A DNA stretch of 64,000 nt, taken from contig NC_135170.1 in NCBI RefSeq assembly GCF_041146795.1, positions 20,640,033-20,704,032 on the forward strand, read 5' to 3'. The translations under genes and the position numbers were made by a program. Positions 3,001 to 63,200 of the stretch are shown in pieces; positions within the stretch are counted from its first letter, which is position 1, and every line of letters starts with the position of its first letter. The notes under the pieces are model-generated. The model made no database searches. It worked only from the letters and a program-made list of their open reading frames with translations, and was not told the DNA's origin. This stretch comes from Maylandia zebra. Its lineage: Eukaryota > Chordata > Actinopteri > Cichliformes > Cichlidae.

Positions 3001-5898
3001 CAATTTGCCAGCTTTAAACAATTAAATATGGACCAAGATCAAATCTATAGGAACTGTAAATTTCTCGAGAAAACTTGTTTAGAGATTGAATTACCGTACT
3101 ATCCATTTCAGTAGCAAACTGCACTTTAATTACCAATTAATCAACCCACATGTGCTGTGACTGTTTATGATCAAACATCACTGGCAACAATTTCAGTCAT
3201 GCTAAAGAAAATAAAAACGCAAGTTATCATATATCTAAGTATTATTATTAATATATAATTGCAGTGTAGAGTGGGAATGCATAAAAATGGATAAGGCCAA
3301 TGTGATGCTCAAATAGAAAGGAGCATCACCTTGAAGCGTGTTTTGGTATTGGGTTTAAAAAAAAAAAATTAAAAAAAAAAGCTAAATGGCAACAAACAAA
3401 GTTGCATTAAAAAGAAGGTTTTAAAGGGGCTTTATGCAGTCCTGTAAAAAAAGTTTCGTTCAGACCTTTGCAGGCATTCGTTCATGCACAGCTCGTTTAA
3501 AGTCTCCCCGCGGCATTTTCTTACCGCGTTGATGTCTGGACCTCAACTGGGTCACTGCAAGACCTTGACTGTTTCCTTTTTCAGCCACTATCTTGTACAT
3601 TTGCTGCTGTGCTTGGGAGCATTGTCCTGTTGCATGACACAATTTCGGCCAAGCATCGGACAGATGGCCTCACACTTAACTCTAGAATACTTTGAAATAC
3701 AGAGGAGTTTATGTCAACTCAATCAATGCAGGTTGTTCCAAACACAACCCCCAAGTCATCACCATTCCATCGCTATGCTTAACAGTTGATATTAGGTGTT
3801 TATACAGATATGCTGTGTGATGTTGTGCATTATGAATTATTGCTCTAAAACTGTTCTGGTTTGTTTAGCTGCAACTTTGCTCCTGCATGTGCTTTTTAAA
3901 CTTCAACCCATATTTGTGTTCAGTCTCTTTCCAACTTTACTGTCATTAATGTTAAAATTTAATATGCTGTAGATTATGTAGCTCATGTGTTTTTTTGAGG
4001 TTTCTCTGACCGTGAGGTGAATTTGGGACTTCCACAAACCCATGTACTGCGAACCAGAAAAACTTCTGCTTTTATAGAGTCCATTCTTTTCACATAACTG
4101 TAAATGTAGTACATCACATGTACTTATGACTACAGCAGTTTAAAATTGCTAAAAACTAAATTTTGTTTTGTTTCATCACATTTTCCATTAACACTCAAAG
4201 AATTACTAGAAAACTACTTTAAAATATCCAAGCAGGAGATGGGGTGTCTTACGCAGTTTAAAAAAAACACACTTTACAAGAAAGACTGCCTCTTGTTGCG
4301 TTAGAAAACACAGCAAGAAATACCAGGTACAGGTATACAGTACATTTCACACTTTAAGTTTATCAAGCCATTCATCATGTGCGTGCAGCTGTAGGTCCAA
4401 GAATCCAAGTGGTATATTATTAATGAGTTATTAATCTTAATTTGTGCTCGTGCACATATGGACTTGTAGGTTTTCATTAGCATGATCTAAAAGATATAAA
4501 ACATTTTAATATGTATCTTTTCCAGAAGATTTGCTAATTACAAAGATTTAAAACTGACAAAAAAAAAAACTTTACATGGAAAAAAGTGAGATGGCACGTG
4601 TTCACTAATCATTTTTTATTCTAGGAAGCAGTGTGCTCTTGAAAGACATAAGACACTGAAATAATTTTCACAGCATTTTTTACAAGGACAGTTGACCGCG
4701 TTTAATTTCTCTGTTAAGTGATTCTGAGTTCATGTTGTGACTGCAGTATAAAAAAAGAAAAAAAACGAGCAGCCTGGATTTGTGAAGCAGTGTTGTGTAT
4801 GAGGTGATCGCTCTTGGCCAATCAGAGCGCATCTCGGAGACTTGCTATGCCGATCAGCCCAAGACAGGAAAAGAGAGGGAGAGCTGCCTGTGGCAATGAG
4901 TGTGAGGTTACCATCGAGCAGTGTCACAGAGGGTTACTGTCGGTCAAAGTCAGAGAGATGGAGAGCACGGCCGCAGGATATGAACACTGTTTACGCAGTG
5001 CGTGTTATCTTATTTACACTTCGCCCCCTATTACAAAACACATACTGGCCAATTTAAGAAGACTGACAGAAAACTCCAAATCTTAACAATGCTCGAAATA
5101 CTCTTGTGATTTCGATTGAAGGCTTAAATTGTTGCACGAATTTTATATATGAATCATACTATATATGCTGTTTGTTTTTTGCAAAAACGGGCACGTGGAT
5201 AGCACTATATTCGCAAGAAAACAAATAAAGTCGTCCACAGAGCATATGGCTAGATTAGTTTTCAACCGATTAATTTGGCATACATAAATACATAAATATT
5301 TGTCAAATCGGTCAAGTGAGGCTCTGTGAACCCAAAAAGAGAGGAATGAACGACAGTAACCCCGGTCTATGGAGCACGCTGGGGGCGGGGCGCACACGAA
5401 GCTAGCTGTACGTTAGTGTCACATATTCGCCTCATGAAATGCGCTTCTATTTTTCTATTGAACAGTAAGACACACAGACGACTTCTGATATTGCAAGAAT
5501 CATCGTTATAAATTACTAACAAAACATCCCAAATATCACTTCCGGCTAGCCTCCATATACTTGCTCACTGATAGTTAGCATGTAGCTAACAGTGGATGAT
5601 GAAAGCTAGCTCTCAGCTTTTAAAAGCTTTTATTTAAAAGATGTCTTTGTATCGAATGTCGTTGTAAGTGATGTTGTTAGTGTGATTATTACATGCAGAA
5701 CACTTAAAGATACGAAAAGGAATGATAACACGTACGGTGTTACCGGTTTTAGCAACTGTTTTAAGCCAGCAGCAACCATTATATTTTCTTACCATCAATG
5801 TCGCTTAGGAGGGCCGTGTCAATATCACTGGGGTCGTTAAGCGACAGTGTTGGATCCAGATTATCCAACGAATGATCGTCAAAAGACAGGCTGTTCAT
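83..5898 (-). CDS. srebf1: srebf1, sterol regulatory element-binding protein 1 (5' six coding exons, partial)
   Basis: SREBP-1 is an ER membrane bHLH-zip transcription factor. Its N-terminal half is released by Golgi proteolysis and activates lipid and sterol synthesis genes. Visible coding exons in transcript order: 5898-5793, 2939-2394, 1087-912, 795-658, 547-329, 197-83. All have GT-AG junctions and phases agree, giving about 433 residues; the membrane and regulatory half lies off the left edge. Exon 1 (35 codons) is an acidic activation segment ending DTALLSDID, followed by [18 protein letters not shown], which fits SREBP-1 and not SREBP-2. Residues about 40-320 are Ser/Pro/Gln-rich. The bHLH starts near residue 363 ([19 protein letters not shown]) and has the Tyr (about 374) typical of SREBPs. 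The zipper continues in exon 6 ([19 protein letters not shown]). The long acidic first exon corresponds to the SREBP-1a form. The start is the first ATG of that exon; no upstream coding exon was seen. Confidence 0.95.
3440..4085 (-). mobile_element. Degenerate Tc1/mariner-like transposon fossil
   Basis: This part of srebf1 intron 1 is a decayed Tc1-type transposase in antisense orientation. Near 3600-3660 the minus strand reads [10 protein letters not shown]-like codons, matching the QDNDPKH catalytic motif of Tc1 transposases. The same block recurs at 12530-13095 with shared stretches such as 'gttgcatgacacaattt'. No intact frame or clear terminal inverted repeats remain. Boundaries are approximate. 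Confidence 0.6.
4799..4822 (-). promoter_or_regulatory. CCAAT box next to SRE-like site in srebf1 intron 1 (candidate 1c-type promoter)
   Basis: On the minus strand, ATTGG (4822-4818) is followed 9 nt later by ATCACCTCAT (4808-4799), which resembles the sterol regulatory element ATCACCCCAC. The pair lies about 1.1 kb downstream of the first coding exon, inside intron 1. In mammals the SREBP-1c promoter sits in the equivalent intron and combines NF-Y and SRE sites. I could not find a convincing 1c first exon with an ATG and a phase-1 donor downstream, so this is inference. Confidence 0.4.
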
Positions 5899-29593: not shown

Positions 29594-32500
29594 ATGAGCT
29601 CGGAATATATTATCTCTGAGCCCACGTCGATGGACAAAGAGATCCTGCAGCATGCTGTGCATGAACAGTTTAAACCAGATCACATCCTGCGTTTTCCAGA
29701 TGCGAGCCAAATCCACTTTAATGAAGTCCAGAAATTAAGACTGGAGTACAAAAGTAAGGGGAAATCATGAAGGTGATGAGGAATGTAGCAATGTTTAGCA
29801 TGCTGATTTTGTTTGAGTGAGAGGATGCTTTTTTATACATTTTCAGACATCCTGAGGATTGATCACTTATGGGACTTCTCATCTTTGTCCAAACTTGAGT
29901 TAAATAACAATGCTATAGAAAAGATCCAGGGACTGGACCATCTGATTAATCTGACGTGGCTTAGTAAGATACAAAGTTTGTTCTTGTTGACCAAATGATG
30001 TGTAGGCACTGCCATCTTATATCAGCTCAGAATCTACTGGTAATGATGAGAGTCATTTCGAATGTGTCCCTCAGATCTGTCATTCAACCAGATTGAGAAA
30101 ATAGAGGGTCTGGAGTGTGTGCAGAAGCTTGAAGTGCTGAATCTATCCAACAACAAAATCTCTGTCATTGAAAATATGGACACACTTGAGAACCTAACTC
30201 ACTTCTTCATTTCAAACAACCTAATTGGGCAGTTGGATAATGTAAGAAACGTTTCTGCATTTGCCATGCAAGTATGGGGAAACATTCATGTGATACTGTT
30301 TAATTAACCTAATGCATTTCAAAGGTGCTCTACCTCAGGAAGTTCAAGAACCTGGCAGCGTTCAACCTGTTTGGAAATCCTTTCCTAAACGAGGGTGATT
30401 ACAGATTTTTCATCGCTGCCTACTTTCCAAAGCTGATGTTCCTAGACTCCAGAATACTTGACCAGAAGACAGTAAGTGCAAACCCAATCTACATTTTGTT
30501 CTGCGCTTACCTTTAAAGTAGCATTTACATACACATTTACAGAGTATGAGTATACCCAAGCCTAGGACATGTATGAGGACAGTGAGACAGTGGTGAGGTG
30601 TGCAGAAGGAGTGACACATTAGTTCAAGATGGGGATAGGATTACACCTGAGCCCCTTTTTGTTTGCAGTGGTGATGGACAGGTTGACTACGATGTTTGCA
30701 GATGAAAATGGGATCCGTAGTGAGAGTAGCGAGCAGGTGGAAGAGAGTCTGGAGAAATGGAGGTGTGCTAGAGCGAAGAAGGAAGGTCAGCAGAAGCAAA
30801 ACAGAGTATGTGTGTGAATGAGAGGGAGACAGATGTAACAGTAAAGCTGACTGTACCCAAGCTTGTTTGAAAGTCATCCTCATGTGCATTTATGAATTGC
30901 TGGTTGATGCAGAGTAACAAAATTTTATTTCTGTGTACATACAGAGAAAGGAAGCATCTATCAAATATCACTATGTCCTTGAGAAAATGAGACTTGAAGA
31001 GCTGGAGCTACACCAGGCTGATGAGGCTCGACAAAGACACGAAGCTGAGCTAAAATTACACCGAGTACTATCTTTTTTTGTGACTCATCTGTTGATTTGT
31101 ATACATACAGTCTGACACTTATGTTTTCTTTTTTGTTGTTTTTTGTGAAGGATGCCTTTGTGGAGTTCCTTAATGGCTCTTCTCTGTTTAAGACCATGTT
31201 TAAAGATGATCCAAAAGCACAAACACTGCACTGTGCACCAGGAGTGGATTCTCTGATTCAAAGATATCTTTTATCATCCTGGTTTCCTGATCCATGCGTG
31301 CATTGTTATTATTGTCATAGTACAGGCTAAACCAATCATTCCTTTTGGTTCCTTGACCTTGCACTTACATTTGAGCACCAAATGGGGGAGCTGTGTACAC
31401 AGTTATTTGAAAGGGGCTTGGCTGAGCACAAACGAAGGGAGACAGAGGTGAAGTCTTTCTTCAGTTGCCAAGAAAAGGCTGTGACAGACTGCCAGGAGAA
31501 GGCGTCGCAGATGTTAGCAAAGTTTAATCATGAACACAAAGAGGCAAGCAGGGAGCAATCGCCTTTTCCGTGTGCACAGTGATTTACATGAATGCAGTGA
31601 CTCAGCATGAGATGATATTTTGTGTTTTCTCCTTTAAAGCGGACAGAAGAGTTGCAGCAGTTATCAGACCCAGAGGTACGCAAAGTCAAGATTGACCACT
31701 GCAATGGTGAAATTAACCGGCTCTGTAAAAACCTCATGACACTGGAGTTTCAGCTGGTCAGCGAGATGGAGGTTAGTGTATGCTAGAGTTTGTACACTTG
31801 TATAATTTGTAAAATATCTCAATGAAATCTCATGAAATTTCTTATTTTATAAATTATGTTAAAATACTTGATATGTCATGAGACTGTATGTCTGTGTTTC
31901 ACATTTAATCAAAGTGATGCTGCTTGGTCATTTTAGGAGAAGATCAAAACTTTTGAGAGCAGAATCTCAGACATGGTTAGACACTTCAGTGAAATCGCAC
32001 AGGGGATATATCCTTTTTTTTTTTTTACAGGAAAATAACAGAACTGCCTCAAAAACATTCTAAAAACACTCATTACTGTATGCTAGTAATTATATAGTCA
32101 TGAGCACTCCAACTCACTGGTGACCTGTCCCTGCAACCTTAAACTGGATAAGCAGAAGAAAGTGGTTCATCAACTCACCAGAGTGTCGTAGCACAAATGA
32201 GGGTTTAATGGGGTTTAATCAAACAGATGTTTTCCTGTGTGAGTGATTTCTTTAACAAAACAATACGTTCTCCCACTGTCGAGATCTTGAAGATGACTAT
32301 TATCAGAAGATGCAAATAGTTGCTGCTAAAATCTTGCAGACAGTGGCCAGAGACGCCCGGAAGGAGGACTTGCCAGATGATGTTATAATGGTCAGTGTCG
32401 TCCTTTATAAGCCAAACTGGTATTACAAAATATATGGTTACAAATATATGGCTGAAAAAAAAACCCCTGCAAGTTTCTGTCTCTGTTCTGGTCTTTGTTA

Positions 32501-60200: not shown

Positions 60201-63200
60201 AGCTGTTGGTGGCCACCACGATGTGACTGTCACCTTTTCCCAGAAACTTCACGTCCAGCACCTCGTCACTGTAGCCCACAAACTGAAGCGGGAGGGTGAA
60301 TAGAGCAACCGAGGAGAGAGTGACCGTTAATTCTAATACGCAGATACACAGAACAGCAAAAAATAGAAACATAGTGAACCTTCTGAGATGATACCAATGT
60401 TTAAAATAACAATTACATAGCTGGTGATGATATATTTTATTATTTTTGTAAGATTTTTTTTTACTTCTCTCTTTCTGTGTACCAGGGAAACAAACAATTC
60501 CATAAAAAATGATTTATTTTTAATGTGTATGTAAAAGTAAGAAAAAGAAACAACTAACAGATGTTTGAAGCTGTAGTGTGATGTCATGTAAGTATTGGAC
60601 CTAAGCAGTCCACTAAGACGTGACCCCAGTACCCACTTGCTGCTGTGTGGTGAGAGCAGGCAGCTGATACAGCAGTATGTTGTGCTCTGCAGTGACTGTG
60701 GCCAGTCTAGCTGAGGCGGGCAGGTGAAACAGGTATGTCAGACTGCGGGGGTTGTCGTTCTCATCCTCCTCAGAGGCAGAGGGGAGGGTGGAGGGAAGGG
60801 TCTGCGTGTAGACACAACGTGCCGTGCTGGCCTCCCACACCCTTAATACACCTAGGAGAAAGAAAGGAGAGAAGATGAGTGACACAGAGGAGATAAAGGA
60901 CATTTATATAAATATTTGAGGTACCGTATTTTCACGACCATAAGGCGCACTTAAAAGTCTTAGATTTTCTTCAAAAAGTGCGGCGCGCCCTATAGCGCGG
61001 TGCGCCCTATGTGTTGTAAGGAGGACGTAGTAGAGAACACCATGAGAACGTTAAAGGGTGAAGTGTGGGCGTTGATCGTATATACCGGGACAATCACACA
61101 TACCTGTATAAAAGGACAGGTATGTGCATTATGTGGAACATCGTTGTTTTAACAACCCTGAAAATGGCAAAGAGACACGCTTACGAAGCACAGTTTAAAC
61201 TGAAGGCCATCAGCTACGCGGAGGAACATGGAAATCGAGCAGCGGCGAGAGAATTTAAGATAAACGAATCGATGGTTCGCAAATGGAGGAAGCTGGAAAA
61301 CAAGCTCCGGCAGGTCAAGAAAACGCAGCTGAGTTTCCGCGGACATAAGGCGAGGTGGCTCGAGTTGGAGGAAAGACTCGAGCGGTGGATCATCGAGCAA
61401 AGAGCGAGCGGGAGAAGCGTTTCGACGGTCACCATTCGGCTAAAAGCAGTTTCACTAGCTGAAGAGATGAACATTGAACATTTCCAAGGAGGTCCGTCTT
61501 GGTGCTTTCGTTTTATGAAACGGTGCCATTTTTCCATCCGGACCAGGACTACGGTAGCGCAGCAACTTCCAGCGGATTATAAGGAAAAGCTGGCCATCTT
61601 CCGCTCCTACTGCAGCAAACACATCGGCGACAAAAACATCCAGCCCAGCCACATCACTAACATGGACGAGGTGCCGCTCACTTTCGACATCCCGGTGAGT
61701 CACACTGTGGAGAAGAAGGGGACCAGCACGGTAGCGATACGCACAACGGGGTATGAAAAGTCTTCTTTTACTGTTGTGCTTGGCTGCCATGCTAATGGAC
61801 AGAAACTGCCACCTATGGTGATTTTTAAGCGAAAGACTTTGCCTAAAGAGAAGTTTCCAGCAGGAATCATCATTAAGGCAAATGAAAAGGGCTGGATGGA
61901 TGAGGAAATGATGAAAGAGTGGCTGAGGGAGGTGTATGTAAGGAGACCAGGTGGTTTTTTCCACGCATCACCATCGCTCTTAATCTGTGACTCTATGCGT
62001 GCCCATCTCACAGCCGATGTGAAAAAACTTGTGAAGCAAATGAACTGTGAGCTTGCTGTCATTCCGGGAGGCCTGACAAAGGAACTCCAACCGCTGGACA
62101 TCGGTGTGAACCGCCCGTTCAAAGTAAGGCTGCGAGCGGCCTGGGAGCGATGGATGACCGGTGGAGACCACAGTTTCACTAAGAGTGGAAGGCAGCGCCG
62201 GGCGAGTTACGCCACAATTTGCCAATGGATTGTAGATGCTTGGGCTAACATGTCTGCTGGCACTGTTGTTCGAGCTTTCGCAAAAGCCGGCATCATTTCC
62301 GAGGAGCCGCACGGCACGGAAAGTGACTCTGACGGTGAAGAAAGTGAACCTGGCATGTTTGATGGAGATTTAGCGCAGCTGTTCAATTCAGACACAGAGG
62401 ATGAGGACTTCCATGGGTTTGATTGATGATAAAAATGTGAGTACCAAACTTTGTTTTGCTCCTGCTTTATTTTTAAATACGCACACTTGTATGCTTGTGT
62501 GTTGTTGATGATGACGATTACCGGCAATAGAAATGTGAGTAAGGTACCGAATTCAGGTTTGCTCCCGCTTTATTTTTAAATACGCATACGGTACTTGTAT
62601 GCGCCCTATGGTCCAGTGCGCCTTATGTGTGTGTTAAATACAGTAAGGGCACACATAACTGAGACTGCGCCTTTTAGCACAGTGCGCCTTATGGTCGTGA
62701 AAATACGGTATTTAGCAGCCAGACCTTTGCTTCCAGCTGTGATGAAATGCAAGTCCTTGCTCTTTACTCTGATCTCAGCCAAGTCTGTACTTCCAGGAAG
62801 AATTACAACACCCTCCACAGCCTGTAAGATCACATACACACAAATAAAGCTCCAGTTTTCTCCCCAAATGAAGAGCACAAAATGTATTTAAGTTAAAATG
62901 AATCTAAATTGACGAGCTTACCTCATAGACTGGAACAGTTCTCTTGGCTTTGCGAGTTTTCAGGTCCCAAACTGTGCAGATCTTGTCTCTGCCAGAACTG
63001 AAAGAGCACAGGACTTTAACACACAGCGCTACACAAACAAAAAGGAGTCTGAGGTTGATTTAAAATATCACAGTACCTGACCATGGCGTTACCATCGGGA
63101 CTGAAGCTGAGAGATGTCACAGCACTGTAGTGGCTCTGCAGGACACACACACACTGGCTGGAGCGCAGGTCCCATATCCGGATGCCACAGTCCAAAGAGG

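Follow-up and report, generated by a model that had tools for sequence, protein, structure and literature searches.

Two predicted U12-type AT-AC introns in the axonemal gene drc3

Introns of the minor, U12-type class tend to occur together. They cluster in the same genes in 21 of 21 genomes tested (PMC7367187), and in human and in mouse 50 genes hold two minor introns and 3 hold three (PMC6717393), genes with two U12 introns being commonest among voltage-gated channels (PMC3584512). One survey puts the AT-AC share of U12 introns at 22% in zebrafish, at 25% in mouse, at 26% in human and at 12% in two pufferfish (PMC7367187), and another puts the AT-AC share of minor introns at about 24% in mouse and about 22% in human (PMC6717393). 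Moreover, minor introns are biased away from phase 0 (PMC10639083), the optimal distance between the branch site and the 3′ end of a U12 intron is 11–13 nt (PMC3584512), and 91% of human minor introns are conserved in zebrafish (cited in PMC10639083). An earlier note on the DNA described here called a pair of AT-AC introns in one gene unusual, which is right in that AT-AC introns are a minority, and overstated in that this minority reaches 22–26% in zebrafish, mouse and human and that 50 human genes already hold two minor introns. A gene with two AT-AC U12 introns should still be rarer than one with two U12 introns of any kind, and we found no count of such genes in the main texts of open-licence papers.

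The pair studied here lies in drc3, the orthologue of LRRC48, within a 64-kb stretch of DNA (the window) that corresponds to positions 20640033–20704032 of contig C4 in a 962-Mb genome, which to judge from sequence, size and gene order is probably that of a ray-finned fish. Splicing by reading frame gave a coding region of 12 exons from the ATG to the stop codon (Table 1). The predicted protein matched the DRC3 chain 8j07_3 over residues 8–516 (E 2.6e-114) and the DRC3 chain 9fqr_Qv (E 2.6e-113), the former from what we take to be a human axoneme structure, and the Pfam leucine-rich repeat families LRR_9, LRR_4 and LRR_8 were found over cut-off. When the protein was compared with the whole genome, 12 of the 17 matches were the 12 collinear exons on contig C4, each matched once, and the remaining five were partial, within residues 45–168 and at 33–41% identity; drc3 thus appears, as judged from these matches, to be present as a single full-length copy. 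Relatives of the 280-aa C-terminal part were confirmed neither among prokaryote contigs (0 of 17 pattern matches) nor among viral contigs (0 of 1). A GID4-like gene follows on the 3′ side and the left end of the window holds a bHLH exon, an order similar to SREBF1-TOM1L2-DRC3-GID4, which is presumably the human one. Between 33840 and 34480 (+), 3′ of the drc3 stop codon, there is a lysine- and glutamate-rich, coiled-coil-like stretch, seemingly frame-broken by eye, that is perhaps a decayed exon or gene, and elsewhere in the window a stop-to-stop frame of 454 aa (61062–62426, +) resembles a transposase of the pogo/Tigger type, its DDE_1 and Tc5-type DNA-binding domains scoring above the Pfam cut-offs. 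The 11 introns of drc3 comprise eight GT-AG, one GC-AG and two AT-AC introns, with phases 1, 1, 0, 0, 0, 2, 0, 0, 2, 0 and 0 in order, so that phase 2 is confined to the AT-AC introns 6 and 9, in keeping with the phase bias of minor introns. Within 31065–31076, the major donor of intron 5, GTACTATC, is weak (score -2.2), and from 31068 the sequence CTATCTTTT differs at a single position from a U12 donor; no branch-like site of this intron scores above -1.0.

Table 1. Positions of drc3 and of the introns discussed, numbered within the window (U12-type assignments are predictions)
Feature	Positions	Strand	Class and phase	Details
drc3 coding region, ATG to end of stop codon	29594..33406	+		12 exons, 517 aa; spliced frame, full-length DRC3 match, collinear exons
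Intron 6	31264..31368	+	AT-AC, putative U12-type, phase 2	105 nt
Intron 6, putative U12-type 5′ splice site	31264..31272	+		ATATCTTTT
Intron 6, putative U12-type branch site	31349..31357	+		TTCCTTGAC; branch A 12 nt before last base
Exons 7–9 with introns 7 and 8	31369..32007	+		between the AT-AC introns; three exons together 378 nt
Intron 7	31544..31639	+	GC-AG, phase 0	between the AT-AC introns
Intron 8	31772..31936	+	GT-AG, phase 0	between the AT-AC introns
Intron 9	32008..32266	+	AT-AC, putative U12-type, phase 2	259 nt
Intron 9, putative U12-type 5′ splice site	32008..32016	+		ATATCCTTT
Intron 9, putative U12-type branch site	32248..32256	+		TTCTTTAAC; branch A 11 nt before last base

The junctions read CAAAG/ATATCTTTT ... 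CTTAC/ATTTG for intron 6 and GGGAT/ATATCCTTT ... ATAC/GTTCT for intron 9. The second of these donors is identical to the U12-type AT-AC consensus, ATATCCTTT, and the first differs from it by a single change, T for C at +6; the branch sites are both close to the consensus TTCCTTRAY, and both distances from branch site to intron end fall inside the 11–13 nt optimum. The coordinates of both introns, their AT and AC ends and branch sites 11–12 nt from the end are all as the earlier note had claimed. We then asked how often such an arrangement arises by chance. A joint model, consisting of an ATATCYTTT donor and a TTCYTTRAC branch site with its A 9–14 nt before a terminal AC at a total length of 60–400, matched exactly two places on both strands of the 64 kb, which were introns 6 and 9, and at least one match was present in only 2 of 500 dinucleotide shuffles (mean 0.004). 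Taken singly, the donor motif had 4 occurrences in the window where 1.82 were expected, and 11 of 100 shuffles reached that count; the branch motif had 8 where 4.02 were expected, and 7 of 100 shuffles did as well. Single motifs in the window are therefore within chance, whereas the joint pattern is beyond it. With log-odds weights that were hand-set from recall and untrained, the 5′ sites of introns 6 and 9 scored 8.4 and 13.9 compared with -11.0 to -19.2 for the other nine drc3 introns, and their branch sites scored 13.3 and 11.5 compared with at most 3.4. When the window was scanned more broadly, for U12-like pairings of 60–3000 nt, eight were listed, namely the two introns, four others that start from one or other of their donors and two weak pairings at 4497 on the minus strand, the gene model having been built for drc3 only. 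As a control, two 20-kb stretches around NYD-SP28 family matches, which we take to be drc1 and drc2, contained 5 donor-like motifs in one and 1 in the other, and neither showed a complete U12-like pairing on the plus strand, scanned without gene models. Motifs, spacing, protein alignment and the rarity of the joint pattern all bear out the earlier proposal of two U12-type AT-AC introns in drc3, and we consider introns 6 and 9 to be, with high confidence from their sequence, ordinary minor-class introns of the AT-AC (A-type) subtype. Because minor introns are well conserved among vertebrates, the DRC3 genes of other vertebrates probably share them and they may already be catalogued; on the strength of this general conservation, old inheritance would be likelier than recent gain.

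The two introns are 639 nt apart, where about 640 nt had been claimed. A GC-AG intron was said to lie between them, and it does, as intron 7, but the GT-AG intron 8 had been omitted. At 32014–32030, 13 consecutive T and then ACAG form a look-alike of a major-class 3′ site, which begins at position +7 of intron 9, where it overlaps the U12 donor motif, and it could compete as an acceptor for intron 8. If exons 7–9 are skipped together the frame is kept and a protein of 391 aa results, whereas skipping exon 6, 7, 9 or 10 singly loses the frame. It might be supposed from this, and from the shared phase 2, that introns 6 and 9 form a regulated unit, in which a shortage of minor splicing would lead the intron 6 donor to join the intron 9 acceptor, and exons 7–9 would be dropped. 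Exon skipping around minor introns under inhibition of the minor spliceosome is indeed described in mammals (PMC8034651), but as described there it is the major spliceosome that skips the exons adjoining minor introns, not a joining of U12 donor to U12 acceptor. Moreover, one block of exons in three would keep the frame by chance alone, and omission of exons 6 and 7 together or of exon 8 alone (132 nt) keeps it equally. We thus regard a regulated unit as a long shot.

A second alternative accepts the AT-AC ends and assigns their removal to the major spliceosome. Major-class (U2-type) AT-AC introns are a known rare class, of which 85 were analysed in PMC8280824, and two of our measurements are compatible with it. 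The pyrimidine fraction before the 3′ end was 0.78 and 0.56 for introns 6 and 9 and ranged over the same 0.56–0.78 in the other nine, so that pyrimidine content, by which U12-type introns would show no distinct polypyrimidine tract, does not set the pair apart. The second measurement concerns pairing with the RNAs of the minor spliceosome, which we located in the genome over Rfam cut-offs as one match each for U12 (127.9 bits), U11 (122.3 bits) and U6atac (133 bits) and two for U4atac (88.4 and 84.1 bits); no Rfam family matched at gathering cut-offs within the 64-kb window, and the CCDC84/CENATAC family had four genome matches, together on contig C12. The two U4atac matches (C16:27634247-27634378 and C22:22260945-22261073) differ from each other. 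Pairing energies with U11 were -5.5 and -6.1 for the donors of introns 6 and 9 versus -8.0, -5.8 and -8.2 for three other drc3 donors, and those with U6atac were -4.8 and -7.1 versus -4.0, -3.4 and -5.7, so that U6atac pairing sets apart intron 9 only and U11 pairing neither intron. U12 RNA paired with the two U12-type branch sites at -7.1 and -5.6 kcal/mol, values that were computed for these sites alone. Because neither pairing energies nor pyrimidine content separates both introns from the rest, assignment to the U12 class rests on motif match and spacing. On these counts both the 5′ sites and the branch sites fit the extended U12 motifs and are spaced as in U12 introns, with scores far from those of the other nine introns, and removal by the major spliceosome is very improbable.

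With introns 6 and 9 removed, the protein aligned gap-free across both junctions to 8j07_3 and to 9fqr_Qv. We then took all in-frame, stop-free cut pairs within set ranges (for intron 6, donors 31200–31300 and acceptors 31301–31420; for intron 9, donors 31960–32060 and acceptors 32160–32320) and scored the resulting proteins by alignment with segments of the two DRC3 chains. Among 3010 pairs for intron 6, the AT-AC pair scored 189.0 and was the best of 22 AT-AC, 8 GC-AG and 7 GT-AG pairs; registers of the same length (105 nt) reached 193.0, but with termini such as TT-TG. Among 1715 pairs for intron 9, the AT-AC pair scored 163.5 and was the best of 14 AT-AC, 5 GT-AG and 2 GC-AG pairs, tied by two registers with other termini. 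Since other registers score equally or higher, the exact cuts rest on protein length and splice motifs together. The claim that both boundaries are forced by frame and alignment consequently holds for intron length, while the exact cut also needs the motifs. That the real junctions should be nearby GT-AG or GC-AG pairs, with the AT-AC signals present by chance, is hardly credible, because, although the in-frame GT-AG and GC-AG pairs just counted are available and exon 9 contains, at 31976, a GT donor with a score of 4.4, above three of the eight GT donors that drc3 itself uses, the best GT-AG pair for intron 6 disrupts the DRC3 alignment (174.0 versus 189.0), the 12 best pairs for intron 9 include neither GT-AG nor GC-AG ones (the twelfth scoring 122.0 versus 163.5), and the full U12 pattern at both introns is not chance-like.

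If introns 6 and 9 are U12-type as we propose, U11 would recognise their 5′ sites and U12 their branch sites, after which U4atac/U6atac would take over, and each productive drc3 mRNA would need two separate minor and nine major splicing events. Were intron 6 retained, the frame would end at 31328, after 296 residues; were intron 9 retained, it would end at 32036, after 410. In human cells, CENATAC depletion affected 92% of A-type and 24% of G-type minor introns, and A-type introns are described as having relatively high basal retention (PMC8280824). Since human cells splice A-type introns inefficiently and need CENATAC to do so, and since retention of either intron leads to an early stop, a limiting minor spliceosome or limiting CENATAC would be expected to lower drc3 output. 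The drc3 mRNA should accordingly respond to the capacity of the minor spliceosome, and most of all to CENATAC, and, both introns being A-type, we infer that drc3 should be a CENATAC-dependent target in the motile axoneme. It is much more speculative, and in our estimate improbable, that drc3 senses the capacity of the minor spliceosome in motile-cilium and sperm cells, in which limiting CENATAC or U6atac would cause either intron retention or, by pairing of the outer U12 sites, in-frame loss of exons 7–9, and so tune N-DRC assembly. Were this so, DRC3 without exons 7–9 would keep its repeats and lose 126 residues of its C-terminal part.

Loss of DRC3 function has described consequences. Infertility was seen in two men carrying DRC3 frameshifts and in Drc3-knockout mice, the mice without other signs of PCD (PMC9832115), and mice with a Drc3 missense allele had hydrocephalus, laterality defects and sinusitis as well as male infertility (PMC4978901). 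Hydrocephalus is mentioned in PMC9979489 for minor-spliceosome disease and, separately, for Lrrc48 mice, and abnormal Lrrc48 splicing in hydrocephalus is mentioned in PMC9720143, where the passages concerned leave minor introns unmentioned. Effects of the minor spliceosome on cilia are also in print, for loss of ZCRB1 in work that cites SCNM1 and RNU4ATAC (PMC13216214); DRC genes are not mentioned in its main text. In searches of the main texts of open-licence papers, we did not find drc3 named as a link between minor splicing and motile cilia. Genes with two U12 introns have been described before, as has a connection of minor splicing with cilia, and what may at most be new is drc3 as a CENATAC-dependent target in the motile axoneme. 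Knowledge of minor introns as such is unchanged by this finding. If confirmed by RNA, drc3 would be a clean reporter of A-type minor splicing in motile-ciliated cells, because it has two AT-AC introns, is apparently single-copy and meets an early stop when either intron is retained. Moreover, it would become testable whether defects of the minor spliceosome or CENATAC harm motile cilia via an axonemal gene, beyond their effects on primary cilia.

Compared with known U12 AT-AC introns, the drc3 pair shares the ATATCYTTT 5′ site, the TTCYTTRAC branch site, the spacing of 11–12 nt, the AC end and phase 2, and none of the sequence features tested distinguishes it from them; the donor of intron 6 has T for C at +6. 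Like the known genes with two U12 introns, drc3 would hold its two among major introns; unlike these genes, of which channels are the commonest, it has two introns that are both AT-AC and is a structural gene of the N-DRC in the axoneme. With the cilia effects of ZCRB1, SCNM1 and RNU4ATAC it has in common that a ciliary gene relies on minor splicing, which for drc3 is predicted, but the ZCRB1 work, in the text of PMC13216214, concerns primary cilia and ciliogenesis genes, whereas drc3 encodes a protein of the N-DRC, the loss of which causes male infertility (PMC9832115).
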